From Spinellus fusiger (Eukaryota > Mucoromycota > Mucoromycetes > Mucorales > Phycomycetaceae): a stretch of 64,000 bases of DNA. Location: positions 248,001 through 312,000 of the forward strand of contig JALLLS010000002.1 in the NCBI GenBank assembly GCA_025094145.1, read 5' to 3'. Under the pieces are notes generated by a model, which was not told the origin of the DNA, made no database searches, and saw only the letters and a program-made list of their open reading frames with translations. Every line of letters begins with the position of its first letter. Position 1 is the first letter of the stretch. This document shows, piece after piece, positions 38,881 to 44,019 of the stretch. The position numbers and the translations under genes were made by a program.

Positions 38881-38903
38881 GATTATTTATTCAAAGATTG
38901 ATA

Positions 38904-39701
38904 CAGTTCAAAGTATTTTTAATTTTGGGTGTAAATGTTATTTGCGCATTGAGCATATTAGCTACCTTATCATAGCTTTTGAGCAATTAAGATATACATA
39001 TAAACACTATAGATAAAAAAATGAGGGAAGAATAAATTAAAGAAAAAAGAAACAGAAGGACAGGCAAATATAAAACCTCAAATAAGGGACAAATGATGAG
39101 AAATGAGTAGAAATAACAGTAGATGCTAAGTTAAGAATAGACATCTAAAAAGGCCATAATGTCAGCAAGGAAACCAGGACACCAAAAAAAAGATAACCAT
39201 CATCCTATGGTAATCCGAAAACCAACGAGGGATACTTAGAGCAACTCGGACAATCCTGAGAACACAACTACAACAGCTACACTTGCAGCTTCTGGCTTTG
39301 CTAAACGGGTTATGAATGGGTGGTAGAGAAGTCTTTGCACTCTATGATAGTGTTGGTATTCCTACTCAACACACCTATCAGCAGCCTCAGCGAGTAAGCT
39401 ACCAGATGGTGGATCTATTTAGGGTACATCATTGCTCTTCACTTTGGCTCAAGCATTGTCACACCCCGTCTATCCACCATTGCCTTTGAGAATCTTGTGG
39501 AGTCAAGCCCAAACTAATGTCTATTCTTCATTGTTATTTCTATACATTTCTACTTAATTTTCATTATCTTTTCACTTTTGTATTTGTAGTGTTTATATGT
39601 ATATCTTAATTGTTCAAAAGCTATGATAAAGTGGCTACTATGCTCAATGCGCAAATAGCATTTACACCTAAAATAATAATAAAATAATATACTCTGGACT
39701 G
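38904..39701. mobile_element. Non-autonomous derivative of the RT element with ~110-bp inverted termini
   Basis: TA and CAGTTCAAAGTATTTTT open the element at 38904. The complementary end (...CTCTGGACTG then TA) closes it at 39701. About 110 bp at each end pair imperfectly, sharing blocks such as TTTGCGCATTGAGCATA. Inside are 3' untranslated sequence and a short piece of the RT gene (about 39300-39415), followed by about 130 bp not found in the other copies. Confidence 0.78.
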
Positions 39702-39815
39702 TATGTTATGTCTTGATATGAAAACAGTTCGGAATTTGAAATATCCGAGGTTGCTTTCTGTTTACTTTATTTACACCGGAGCGCAGCTATATCAATTCTC
39801 TACCTTTATTACTCA

Positions 39816-40793
39816 ATGTCTATTTCATTCATTGAAGAAGCAATTGACATTAAAAAAGCCTTCACGAATGAAGAAGCAACCGTGACTGAACAACCAACCA
39901 ACACAGAGAAAACGGACACCAATAAACAGAATTTTAGTGATGAAGATACCCATAAGACTCGTAAAAAGAGGAAATATGTTGATGAAGACATGCGTAAAAC
40001 TATTGTACATGAACACAAGGTCAATGGACTCACTCAAAGGAAGATAGCTGCCATGTTGGGCACTAGCAAAACATCTGTTTGTAAAATATTGAATGAACAT
40101 ACACTTAGTACTGGAATTCCCCATAAGACTCGTAAAAAGGGGAAACGTGTTGATGAAGACATGCGCAAAACCATCGTACATGAGTACAAGGTCAATGGAC
40201 TCACTCAAGAAAAGATAGCTGCCATAGTGGGCACCAGTACATGTACTATCAGTAAAATATTGAATGAACATACACTTAGTACTGGAATTCCCCATAAGAC
40301 TCGTAAAAAGGGGAAACGTGTTGATGAAGATATGCGCAAAACCATCGTACATGAACACAAGGTCAATGGACTCACTCAAAAGAAGATAGCTGACATGGTT
40401 GGCATTCACATAACATCTGTTTGTAAAATATTGAATGAACATACACTTAGTACTGGAATTCCCCATAAGACTCGTAAAAAGGGGAAACGTGTTGATGAAG
40501 ACATGCGCAAAACCATCGTACATGAGTACAAGGTCAATGGACTCACTCAAAAAAAGATAGCTGCCATGGTTGGCATTGGTTTATCGACTGTTTACAATAT
40601 ATTGAAGGCATCCAGGAAGAATGAAAGTCTTGAACCTACAAAAGATATCGAGGCCAAGTCCATAATTACCAATGAAGTTGAGCCAAACTCACAAGTGGAA
40701 TCACAGCTCACTACAGACAATGAAGAGATTAAGCAGGAGCATGATCAATCCAGCTGTACAGTCCACCTTTTACAGGCCAATGATGAGACTTGA
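39816..40793 (+). CDS. Protein with four tandem helix-turn-helix repeats
   Basis: A single intact 325-codon frame. Residues 1-45 are acidic and polar. Four units of 57 residues (171 bp exactly) begin at about 46, 103, 160 and 217; the last is cut after its third helix. Each unit has a basic linker (HKTRKKGKR), VDEDMRKTIVHE, KVNGLTQKKIAAMVG and a third helix ending in KILNEH. This is the layout of a homeodomain-like HTH as in Tc1 transposase N-termini. The tail (about 266-325) is acidic and Gln/Ser-rich. No catalytic domain is present, so it should bind DNA rather than cut it. Differences between units cluster in the turn and third helix: TSKTSV, TSTCTI, IHITSV and IGLSTV. The gene is squeezed between transposons, with 114 bp upstream and 76 bp downstream. 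Function unknown; probably a domesticated transposase DNA-binding domain that multiplied. Confidence 0.8.
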   Translation: MSISFIEEAIDIKKAFTNEEATVTEQPTNTEKTDTNKQNFSDEDTHKTRKKRKYVDEDMRKTIVHEHKVNGLTQRKIAAMLGTSKTSVCKILNEHTLSTGIPHKTRKKGKRVDEDMRKTIVHEYKVNGLTQEKIAAIVGTSTCTISKILNEHTLSTGIPHKTRKKGKRVDEDMRKTIVHEHKVNGLTQKKIADMVGIHITSVCKILNEHTLSTGIPHKTRKKGKRVDEDMRKTIVHEYKVNGLTQKKIAAMVGIGLSTVYNILKASRKNESLEPTKDIEAKSIITNEVEPNSQVESQLTTDNEEIKQEHDQSSCTVHLLQANDET

Positions 40794-40869
40794 ACTTATC
40801 CTATAAATAATTGTGTTTGATCTTATCTTTATTGGTGAATATGAATATTAAACTGTACTCTACTATCTA

Positions 40870-42227
40870 AAGTGACCCGACAAATGTAATCGATGGTTTC
40901 AAATTCCGGACTATTTTTATACCAAAAATAATAAATATCATTCTTTTCTTTAATAACAATTCTTTTTCTCTCTAATGTCTGACTCATCCAACACCGTGAA
41001 CATCTTCACCAAGACCCCCGAGATGTATGGGAAATAGATAAGCCTTGAGACTTGTTCAGCCATTCTCCATAAGGTGCTGAACATGAACAACACTCTGGCC
41101 AAGACATCTCTCATGTTTAATGTTCCTCCCACCACTGTAGGGGACATTGTGAGACATTTCAAGAAGACAGGCTTAGTATTGCTTTCTCCCAAAACTGGCC
41201 GATGAATAAAGTTGGACGACATGGCCCTCTGGTGGTTGAGAAGAACAGTAGTCAGTGATTCTCACCAGACCAAAGAGGCCATTAGGGTAAGCATGGCCAT
41301 CAAGGTATCAGACAAGACTCTGAAGAGGTACCTTGATGAAATGGGCTTTTACTCTTTCAGTCTAGTGGCGATGCCTCTTCTCACCAAGAAACATATGGAG
41401 GCAAGGCTCCAGTGGGCCCATAAGCACGTTGGTTGGACCCATGAGCAGTGGCAAGGGGTTGTCTGGTCCGATGAGTCTAGAGTGGAACTGATGAGCTATG
41501 AAAGGGGCGCAAAAGTCATCAGACAGCCTGGCACGGCCTTTGAGCTTAAGAATGTCCTAGAAATCGGGAAGTTTGGAGGAGGTGGAGTGATAGTATGGGG
41601 CTGTTTCAGTGAGGAGGGTGTTGGGAGATGGATCGTAGTGGAGGGTGGGATACACTCCAACAAGTACATCAATGTCTTGGGAGAAGTCTACTGTCATGAA
41701 CTCAAGTAATTCTCTTTCCTAAATCCTGGAGTTAGTTACCGCCTACAGGAGGACAATGCTAGACCCCATATGAGCAAGGAAACTTGTGAATAGAAGGCAA
41801 CAAAGAGTGTGGGAACTCTTCCTTACTGGCCTTCACAATACTGATCTCAATCCAATTGAGCATCTGTGGACCCACCTCAAGAAGGTTATTAGGAAGAAAA
41901 GGATGGTATATACCACCAAGGAGAAGTTGGAGGCAGCCCTGATGCTAGAATGGGGTAGAATATTTAAAGAATTGACAGACACCCTCATTGCCAGCATAGG
42001 GTGGGGATGCCAGGCTGTCATTGATGCCAAAGAATAATAGTGGTTATTAATTAACCTTCTAATAAAACCTTCTTCTTGTCTTATAAACACTCTTCTATGT
42101 ATCTATTGAAAGTTTTATATCTTTAGCTAATGAATTCATAAGGTTATAACACTATTAAGATAAAGTATGAATCCAAAAAAAAGGAAATATGCATTTAAAA
42201 CCATCGATTACATTTGTCGGGTCACTT
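40870..42227 (+). mobile_element. Tc1/mariner element D with inverted repeats
   Basis: The termini AAGTGACCCGACAAATGTAA and its complement form an inverted repeat of about 33 bp, with TA at 40868-40869 and 42228-42229. Length is 1358 bp. Relatives in the window: a full-length relic (29134-30479) and fragments at 5440-5605 and 31529-31612. Confidence 0.9.
40975..42037 (+). pseudogene. Tc1/mariner D transposase, broken
   Basis: It starts at 40975, then TAG near 41035 and TGA near 41204. The longest intact part is 41212-41709, with the first catalytic Asp in VVWSDESRVEL and GGGGVIVWGCF. After a stop near 41707, QEDNARPH (about 41750) and DLNPIEHLW (about 41845) carry the other acidic residues. 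It ends DAKE at 42037. The catalytic triad is recognisable, but at least four lesions are present. Confidence 0.87.
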
Positions 42228-42229
42228 TA

Positions 42230-43371: not shown

Positions 43372-44019
43372 TTAGTGTAGCTTCTCTTCTGGGAAGTGTC
43401 TAGAGTGAACAATGACTGTGGCACGAAAGGAAAGATCGGAGTAGACAATAGCAATGACAATAATCAATACTGTTTTTAAGCCCATCTTTCCTTTCAAATG
43501 TCCAGCATTGAATAGTATCCCAGTAGAGTAAAGCATTTTATAAGCACAAATGATGATAATAGATAATAAAGATAATAGATAATAGATAATAGATAACGTA
43601 TAACGTATAACGTATAATGTATAATGTATAACGTATAATGTATAATGTATAATGTATAATGTATAATGTATAATGTATAATGTATAATGTATAATGTATA
43701 ATGTATAATGTATAATATATAATAAACAATAGACAATAGACAATAGACAATAGATAATAGACAATAAACAATAGACAATAGATAATAGACAATAAACAAT
43801 AGACAATAGATAATAGACAATAAACAATAGACAATAGATAATAGACAATAAACAATAGACAATAGATAATAGACAATAAACAATAGATAATAGATAATAG
43901 ACAATAGATAATAGATAATAAACAAGTAAAGTTAAGGTGGAGACGTCAAATACAAAAGCATAAAAGTCAGCATTACTGCTCTTGCTTCTCACTACAGTAG
44001 TCATGTGATTTGTCCTCAA
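43372..44019 (-). CDS. Doubtful: open frame running through a 7-bp minisatellite
   Basis: A 215-codon frame is open from 44019 to 43372. Its centre is wholly encoded by the 7-bp repeat and reads YIIHYTL and YCLLSIV units. Outside the repeat, the start (MTTVVRSKSSNADFYAFVFDV) and the end (GLKTVLIIVIAIVYSDLSF...) look less random, and the end resembles a membrane segment. A small gene whose intron contains the repeat is possible, but I could not place convincing splice sites. I recognise no family. Confidence 0.2.
   Translation of the reverse strand: MRTNHMTTVVRSKSSNADFYAFVFDVSTLTLLVYYLLSIVYYLLSIVYCLLSIVYCLLSIIYCLLFIVYYLLSIVYCLLSIVYCLLSIIYCLLSIVYCLLYIIHYTLYIIHYTLYIIHYTLYIIHYTLYVIHYTLYVIRYTLSIIYYLLSLLSIIIICAYKMLYSTGILFNAGHLKGKMGLKTVLIIVIAIVYSDLSFRATVIVHSRHFPEEKLH
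43565..43921. repeat. 7-bp minisatellite block (ATAATGT and ACAATAG/ATAATAG units)
   Basis: About 50 heptamers lie in two arrays: a GTATAAT/GTATAAC array (about 43595-43720) and an AGACAAT/AGATAAT/AAACAAT array (about 43720-43921). In the second array the variants alternate in a higher-order pattern of about 35 bp. It sits between the divergent INO4-like and GCIP-like genes. Confidence 0.93.

Follow-up and report, generated by a model that had tools for sequence, protein, structure and literature searches.

Zinc fingers and TALEs are well-documented cases in which tandem repeats recognise DNA in a modular way. Helix-turn-helix (HTH) motifs also occur in tandem, as in Myb and in Pipsqueak (Psq), a conserved factor with a fixed number of HTH copies in which we know of neither unit turnover nor a hypervariable helix 3. 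The arrays described here resemble Pipsqueak in carrying tandem HTH motifs of transposase origin that act as a DNA-binding array, a function that is predicted for the present proteins. With PRDM9 arrays, TALE repeats and the WD40 repeats of fungal HNWD genes they share a homogenised scaffold with diverse contact residues, although the folds differ; what the HNWD repeats recognise is presumably protein and not DNA. Because tandem HTHs are known from Pipsqueak and Myb, and also from the Cbp1 family of fission yeast, the initial annotation of the gene studied here, which knew of no described HTH array of its type, was too wide. Narrow full-text word searches, in which few subscription papers were covered, returned no description of an HTH array that combines unit turnover with a hypervariable helix 3.

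The nearest fungal precedent found is the Cbp1 family, which like the present arrays is transposase-derived and carries N-terminal tandem HTHs, but which retains a DDE domain, a degenerate one in S. pombe, and has few members per species, as set out in the accessible part of PMC10085805. That account concerns pogo-related transposons and not Tc1 proper, and its accessible part makes no mention of variable unit arrays (PMC10085805). Psq-type factors are given a pogo origin in the available text of PMC10027918. In mouse KRAB zinc-finger genes, single contact-residue triplets as well as blocks of 2-7 are repeated, according to the accessible sections of PMC5363842. As KRAB zinc-finger proteins are portrayed in those sections, the arrays resemble them in forming an expanded family of tandem DNA-binding units with segmental duplication, in the tandem repetition of single units and blocks, in selection within the DNA-binding array (reported for KRAB), and in a transposable-element-biased neighbourhood (PMC5363842). 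They differ in their fold, which is HTH and not C2H2, in their origin from a Tc1 transposase, and in that no KRAB domain was seen among the listed Pfam matches.

The gene lies in the window, a stretch of 64,000 nucleotides of Spinellus fusiger DNA, as one open frame of 325 amino acids on the forward strand (39816..40793, ATG to TGA). It contains four HTH units of exactly 171 bp (57 codons), all starting in frame, at 39951..40121, 40122..40292, 40293..40463 and 40464..40634, as placed by unit alignment and the structural model; the last residues of the terminal unit form part of the tail. Tandem Repeats Finder reported the same period of 171 at 39949-40575 (3.7 copies, 89% matches, 0 indels, score 1016). 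In Pfam, the protein matched HTH_23 in four stretches (E 1.9e-25) and HTH_SB, the Sleeping Beauty HTH (E 6.8e-14), which identifies the unit as a PAI-type N-terminal HTH. No DDE catalytic domain, C2H2 finger, KRAB domain or HTH_psq was present among the 25 of 45 Pfam matches listed for this protein, and the frame stops after the tail. C2H2 fingers and KRAB domains were likewise missing among the matches listed for three relatives (25 each of 44, 33 and 49). HTH_psq did match the relative at L013 with 28.4 bits (cut-off 20.4), yet far below HTH_23 and HTH_SB. A second (RED) HTH is absent from the window protein, and the place that a second-HTH-like tail occupies in other members is taken by an acidic C-terminal tail (40620..40790, forward strand), which has low pLDDT and, from the aligned tails, is of a type common to many members.

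Differences between the units are concentrated in unit bases 100-129, which run from the end of helix 2 through the turn into the start of helix 3 and define variable segments on the forward strand at 40051..40080, 40222..40251, 40393..40422 and 40564..40593, the last three also placed by the model. Units 2 and 3 differ at 21 positions, 16 of the 30 in this segment and 5 of the 141 elsewhere (Fisher p 1.5e-10). The by-eye count of the initial annotation, 16 and about 5, was thus accurate, as was its exact 171-bp period with four units. Tests were made on the pairs 2/3, 1/2, 1/3 and 3/4, with 1/4 and 2/4 left out, and the excess was weaker in the other three: 12/30 versus 11/141 for units 1 and 2 (p 4e-5), 7/30 versus 8/141 for units 1 and 3 (p 0.006), and 8/30 versus 4/100 over the first 130 bases of units 3 and 4 (p 0.0009). 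Unit 4 also diverges past helix 3, owing to the different C-terminal tail that takes over there.

DNA and protein searches of the 38.1-Mb genome (197 contigs), followed by retrieval of the loci, placed this gene in a family of at least 58 loci and 59 genes (two in L048), each with 1-10 units, in a single genome; 12 of the loci lie on the window's contig (C110). Genes with one to ten units number 5, 12, 9, 16, 6, 3, 3, 2, 2 and 1, respectively; L034, for example, has a single unit and L016 has 8. The figure of 58 is a lower bound because only part of the first-look candidates was scored (40 of 70 and 72 of 624); array-like rows at C183 and C155 were left out of the count. Before counting, 14 frames were dropped, comprising Tc1 or weak single matches, all frames of L064 and L065, and pieces of broken copies at L014, L015 and L062. 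Three members of the set of 236 units, a Tc1 unit from L030 and two doubtful ones (one from L053, one from L060), are excluded from the 59-gene count. The further tandem copies of the 57-residue unit for which the initial annotation had looked to related genomes are therefore present, in different lengths, within the same genome, and no relatives were found in the outside collections searched.

Sequence comparison shows that the family stems from a Tc1 element: its source is the bipartite PAI-RED domain at the N-terminus of the transposase, with the PAI part multiplied and the catalytic part gone. This origin, already proposed for the window gene, is supported by two sets of matches and by Pfam. 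The last unit and tail of L055 matched L064 at 36% over 121 amino acids (E 2e-20, single comparison). L064 is a stop-free frame of 390 codons that Pfam identifies as a Tc1-type transposase (HTH_Tnp_Tc3_2 1.7e-13 at residues 117-184, DDE_3 5.5e-12 at 193-341, PAX 9.6e-5 at 51-108), and the match spans its residues 38-156, which take in the first HTH and reach into the beginning of the second-HTH domain. Residues ~480-606 of L042 matched a series of further loci at 31-41%, and 14 loci matching L042 (L065-L078) read as transposase N-termini. HTH_Tnp_Tc3_2 was not among the 25 Pfam matches listed for L055 or for L051. A second-HTH-like tail was recognised by eye in about ten members, for example L042, L051 and L055, and many others, the window gene included, have an acidic tail instead. 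The arrays thus share a PAI-type HTH unit with the PAIRED-like domain of Sleeping Beauty and Tc1, as described in the accessible part of PMC7827188, and some keep a RED-type HTH-like tail. Unlike those transposases, they have 1-10 PAI units in place of one, with no DDE domain seen and no transposon ends at a common place (PMC7827188, same part).

On balance, we regard it as probable that these genes encode Tc1-type DNA-binding domains in tandem, which unit turnover retargets, in a host-gene family with a predicted binding role. The surroundings of the arrays also bear on a different reading. Directly upstream of the window gene, and outside it, lies a miniature element, M1 (38901..39704), recognised by self and cross matches, with inverted ends of ~125-130 nt. 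M1 measures ~730-800 nt, stands directly upstream of subfamily-A arrays and is present as a single copy in the window. M1 copies of different loci match the copy at L021 at only about 68-95%.

M1-like sequence was found at 29 of the 58 loci (upstream 17, downstream 20, both sides 9). At L015 and L021, the gene is enclosed by inverted M1 copies of ~730 nt that are 99.6-99.7% identical, as if the arms had been homogenised or newly paired, and the homology of L017, L021 and L034 to other loci begins near the outer end of M1. A Tc1-like coding match was present within about 1.2 kb of 39 of the 58 array loci (50 of 116 flank pieces). All this would fit arrays that are selfish cargo of composite Tc1/MITE-type mobile units (M1-gene-M1), whose proteins bind element ends for the units' own movement, by helping or competing, and not for the host. 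We consider such an arrangement unlikely as the general explanation. Half of the loci are without M1 in the stretches examined, and L002, L011 and L014 share long flanks well past M1 on both sides, which indicates segmental duplication. Moreover, inverted repeats of at least 18 nt around the gene within about 700 nt were found at 13 of 58 loci (loci with too-short flanks being scored as without) and at no common place, so that terminal inverted repeats of their own, as in a Tc1 element, were not recognised in the arrays. Part of the array spread may nevertheless be due to M1 composites.

The inverted repeat that flanks the window gene (39713-39741 / 40897-40925) was rejected as a conserved element end because its right arm overlaps a secondary Tc1 insertion, which, among 40 loci compared, follows the gene at that place only in L001 and L029. 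This insertion is a decayed Tc1 element on the forward strand in the 3' untranslated region of the gene (40868..42229), with 37-nt inverted ends at 40868-40904 and 42193-42229 (97%) and a transposase fragment at 41212-41709 (HTH_Tnp_Tc3_2, E 6.9e-11). For the density of Tc1 matches near arrays, the reference was 5 of 45 chunks of 1.2 kb, a weak control drawn from the window only with the gene stretch left out, and proximity to Tc1 elements is only suggestive as a sign of transposon binding or repression. Other neighbours in the window look ordinary and were named from their translations: the largest subunit of RNA polymerase III and RhoGAP-like, LIM-like and replication-factor-like genes. A minisatellite at 43552-43925 has 7- and 21-bp units (GATAATA / AATAGAC), and its long reverse-strand frames look like repeat artefacts.

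The reading of the arrays as retargeted DNA-binding domains depends on where the units vary. An AlphaFold2 single-sequence model of the window protein consists of four three-helix domains joined by low-confidence basic linkers (mean pLDDT 64; domain cores mostly 80-90; unit 1 blocks 84-90 over residues 61-90). The helices of unit 1 span residues 57-68, 74-81 and 85-98 in the model, and the start of its helix 3 (residue 85) stands at column 39 of the unit alignment. Fold matches to the model, all weak, include the DNA-binding domains of Pax5, Pax6, Tc3, SETMAR and Tn3 resolvase. From the model, columns 39, 40, 43 and 44 are predicted to contact DNA. Columns 39, 40 and 43 probably correspond to residues reported as base contacts in Tc3, and columns 39, 43 and 44, with column 40 outside, presumably fall within the Sleeping Beauty PAI contact list. 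The contact residues of that domain are listed in the accessible part of PMC7827188.

Across 189 distinct near-full units, entropy peaked at columns 40 (3.22 bits) and 39 (3.16 bits), the first two residues of helix 3. The other exposed helix-3 columns reached 2.63 (column 44) and 2.43 bits (column 43), and the buried columns 41, 42, 45 and 46 were nearly fixed at 0.4-0.8 bits. Columns outside the exposed four were also high, namely linker column 8 (2.77 bits), 50 (2.59) and 48 (2.57), about like column 44; at 50 and 48 this is partly because the terminal unit ends differently. Among the 379 pairs of units taken from one and the same gene, the columns that differed most often were 40, 39 and 44, followed by 29, 48, 47 and 43, and column 27 likewise varied strongly. 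The within-gene total of columns 39/40/43/44 was reached by 6 of 100,000 random sets of four drawn from columns 9-48. Since both entropy and within-gene differences peak there, the unit is most variable where the predicted reading helix is exposed.

Part of this pattern is common to the HTH family, because the PAI domains of Tc1 transposases also vary at columns 39, 40 and 44. In a small control of 16 distinct Tc1 PAI domains from the same genome, column 39 was the most variable, column 40 ranked fourth and column 44 seventh, and column 43 was nearly fixed. Ordinary divergence of paralogues in a large, conventional family of HTH transcription factors, with no special array logic, could draw on this likeness, on the fast variation of helix 3 in Tc1 family B (70-92% from a scaffold difference of 0.2 on, as fast as arrays, from few pairs in a set that includes some family-C sequences caught by its seed), and on the existence of HTH arrays such as Pipsqueak and Myb. 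We nevertheless find it quite improbable, given the contrast at matched divergence. At a scaffold difference of 0-0.1, 71% of the four exposed positions differed between array units (344 pairs) versus 9% between Tc1 domains (11 pairs from the 16 distinct domains); the corresponding value for array pairs from the same gene, 48% (50 pairs), accompanies whole-unit copying within a gene. At 0.1-0.2, the values were 78% (1337 pairs) and 45% (5 pairs), and the gap narrows beyond. Helix 3 of Tc1 family A changes no faster than its scaffold, with 16% at 0.2-0.3 (23 pairs) versus 80% for arrays. When 16 sequences each were compared, mean entropy at columns 39/40/43/44 was 2.63/2.61/2.06/2.21 in arrays and 2.62/1.68/0.34/1.51 in Tc1. 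The concentration of change on the exposed helix-3 face, first noticed in the window gene, thus holds family-wide and exceeds that of same-genome Tc1 domains at equal scaffold divergence. None of the 122 array quartets at these four columns recurs among the helix-3 quartets of 15 Tc1 domains (8 distinct quartets) or among 3 further Tc1 quartets, and therefore there is no support for arrays copying the transposases' own code.

Loci whose leaders are still at least 90% identical show rapid turnover in how many units they have and in their internal cassettes, which also argues against ordinary paralogue divergence. Among 14 subfamily-A loci, 66 pairs had leaders at least 90% identical over at least 200 nt. 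The number of counted units differed in 55 of the 66, and out of 90 possible internal helix-3 cassettes the pairs had 8 in common. Subfamily-A units were counted only if the helix-3 segment was complete and in the kept frame, so that the broken copy at L014 is undercounted. L033 and L043 (matching stretches 97.1 and 99.5%) differ by one unit, as do L056 and L059 (97.8 and 93.6%), and L022 and L041 differ by two counted units, L041 being broken. Two-unit blocks are repeated inside L009 and L016, a repeated cassette is present in 17 array genes, and the cassette TSTCTISK, which has two nucleotide forms, is present at five loci, each time on a different scaffold. Judged from these alignments, the pattern is one of copying and loss of units, as in mouse KRAB zinc-finger genes, and the copying that had been invoked for the window gene finds support in the subfamily-A leaders and in the repeated blocks. 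The likeness to KRAB arrays thus extends to unit turnover with diversity focused on predicted DNA-contacting residues.

Constraint on the units was estimated in three ways. Over between-locus pairs with at least 80% nucleotide identity, the scaffold had a pN/pS of 0.48 (0.44-0.53 when loci were bootstrapped) and the four exposed helix-3 codons one of 1.09 (0.92-1.28; 172 of 1000 resamples at or below 1), and the difference was above zero in 1000 of 1000 resamples. A separate count on 80 internal units gave 1.04-1.45 for helix 3 versus 0.45-0.49 for the scaffold in four identity bins. A maximum-likelihood codon model on a tree of 199 units yielded omega values of 0.43 for the scaffold and 1.66 for exposed helix 3 without kappa (2 delta lnL 11.4 for the latter against omega 1), and of 0.54 and 2.24 with kappa (transition bias); the tree behind omega does not allow for the recombination that occurs between units, and only four codons enter. 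Together, these estimates are strong evidence that constraint differs between the scaffold and exposed helix 3. Diversifying selection on the exposed codons is suggestive only, because units recombine, only four codons are involved and the counting interval includes 1. Hence, of the contrast in dN/dS between helix 3 and scaffold that the initial annotation had in mind, the difference in constraint stood, and positive selection did not rise above a suggestion. pS was also raised in helix 3, which suggests that old cassettes being moved about would fit as well as new mutation.

All counted units lie in a single frame in 54 of the 59 array genes, and in the other 5 they are split between frames. 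A genome-wide query with a Tc1 transposase gave 3804 first-look candidates, and 5 of the 108 rows scored were without a stop, one of them a fragment of 39 codons. Because of this contrast, array frames seem to be kept while Tc1 frames decay, in a comparison of unlike sets, the Tc1 rows being aligned across stops and the array genes taken from stop-free frames. It is very improbable that the arrays are non-functional relics, that is, transposase fragments that were amplified as a coding minisatellite and made uniform by unequal exchange, their helix-3 differences dating back to old copies: the split genes, a further out-of-frame piece in L014 and L015 (both among the 54, the piece being dropped by the filter) and several shortened tails would suit such relics, but the low scaffold pN/pS, the nearly invariant buried helix-3 positions and the frame contrast between these differently collected sets all oppose them. 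The observations that the initial annotation had listed as adverse to its proposal, namely variation spread evenly over the unit, a disabled frame or a buried variable segment, come out mostly in its favour among the paralogues.

For the reading we prefer, tandem Tc1-type domains retargeted by unit turnover, the following course of events can be proposed. A Tc1 transposase would have given rise, through its N-terminal, DNA-binding half, to at least 59 host genes, its first (PAI-type) HTH having been multiplied into tandem arrays of 1-10 units and its catalytic domain lost. Gain, loss and copying of units within and between genes would keep the linker, helix 1 and helix 2 fairly uniform, with the exposed helix-3 residues free or favoured to differ. 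Because units turn over while these residues differ, each protein most likely binds a different composite DNA site, possibly by a modular code, with one stretch per unit and basic linkers between. Binding of a partner, or additional contacts, would be provided by the acidic tail or, in about ten members, by the second HTH. As to their role, the proteins would most likely bind in a sequence-specific manner to DNA that is repeated or changes fast, Tc1 elements for example, and probably repress it, and transposons are the likeliest driver of array retargeting.

A bolder version, which we put forward tentatively and hold to be possible but doubtful, is that the host has strung Tc1 reading heads into changeable arrays whose unit turnover follows escaping transposons, an HTH counterpart of the KRAB system and possibly a programmable scaffold. 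If true, transposase reading heads would have been turned into a changeable host repertoire, and the arms-race model would become testable outside vertebrates. Fast-changing, expanding HTH arrays would also add another, unrelated scaffold for modular DNA recognition. Comparisons could draw on about 59 natural arrays, in which the four exposed helix-3 residues occur in 122 natural combinations.

Two minor features concern individual loci. The two array genes of L048 stand back to back and diverge, with frames at 1869-2897 (reverse strand) and 3090-4703 (forward strand) ~0.2 kb apart. They share a leader, one having a second-HTH-like tail and the other an acidic tail that ends in a leucine-rich motif also present in L054. 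The leaders of L056 and L059 hold a short tandem peptide repeat, NNEQTL, whose copy number differs between these near-identical genes.
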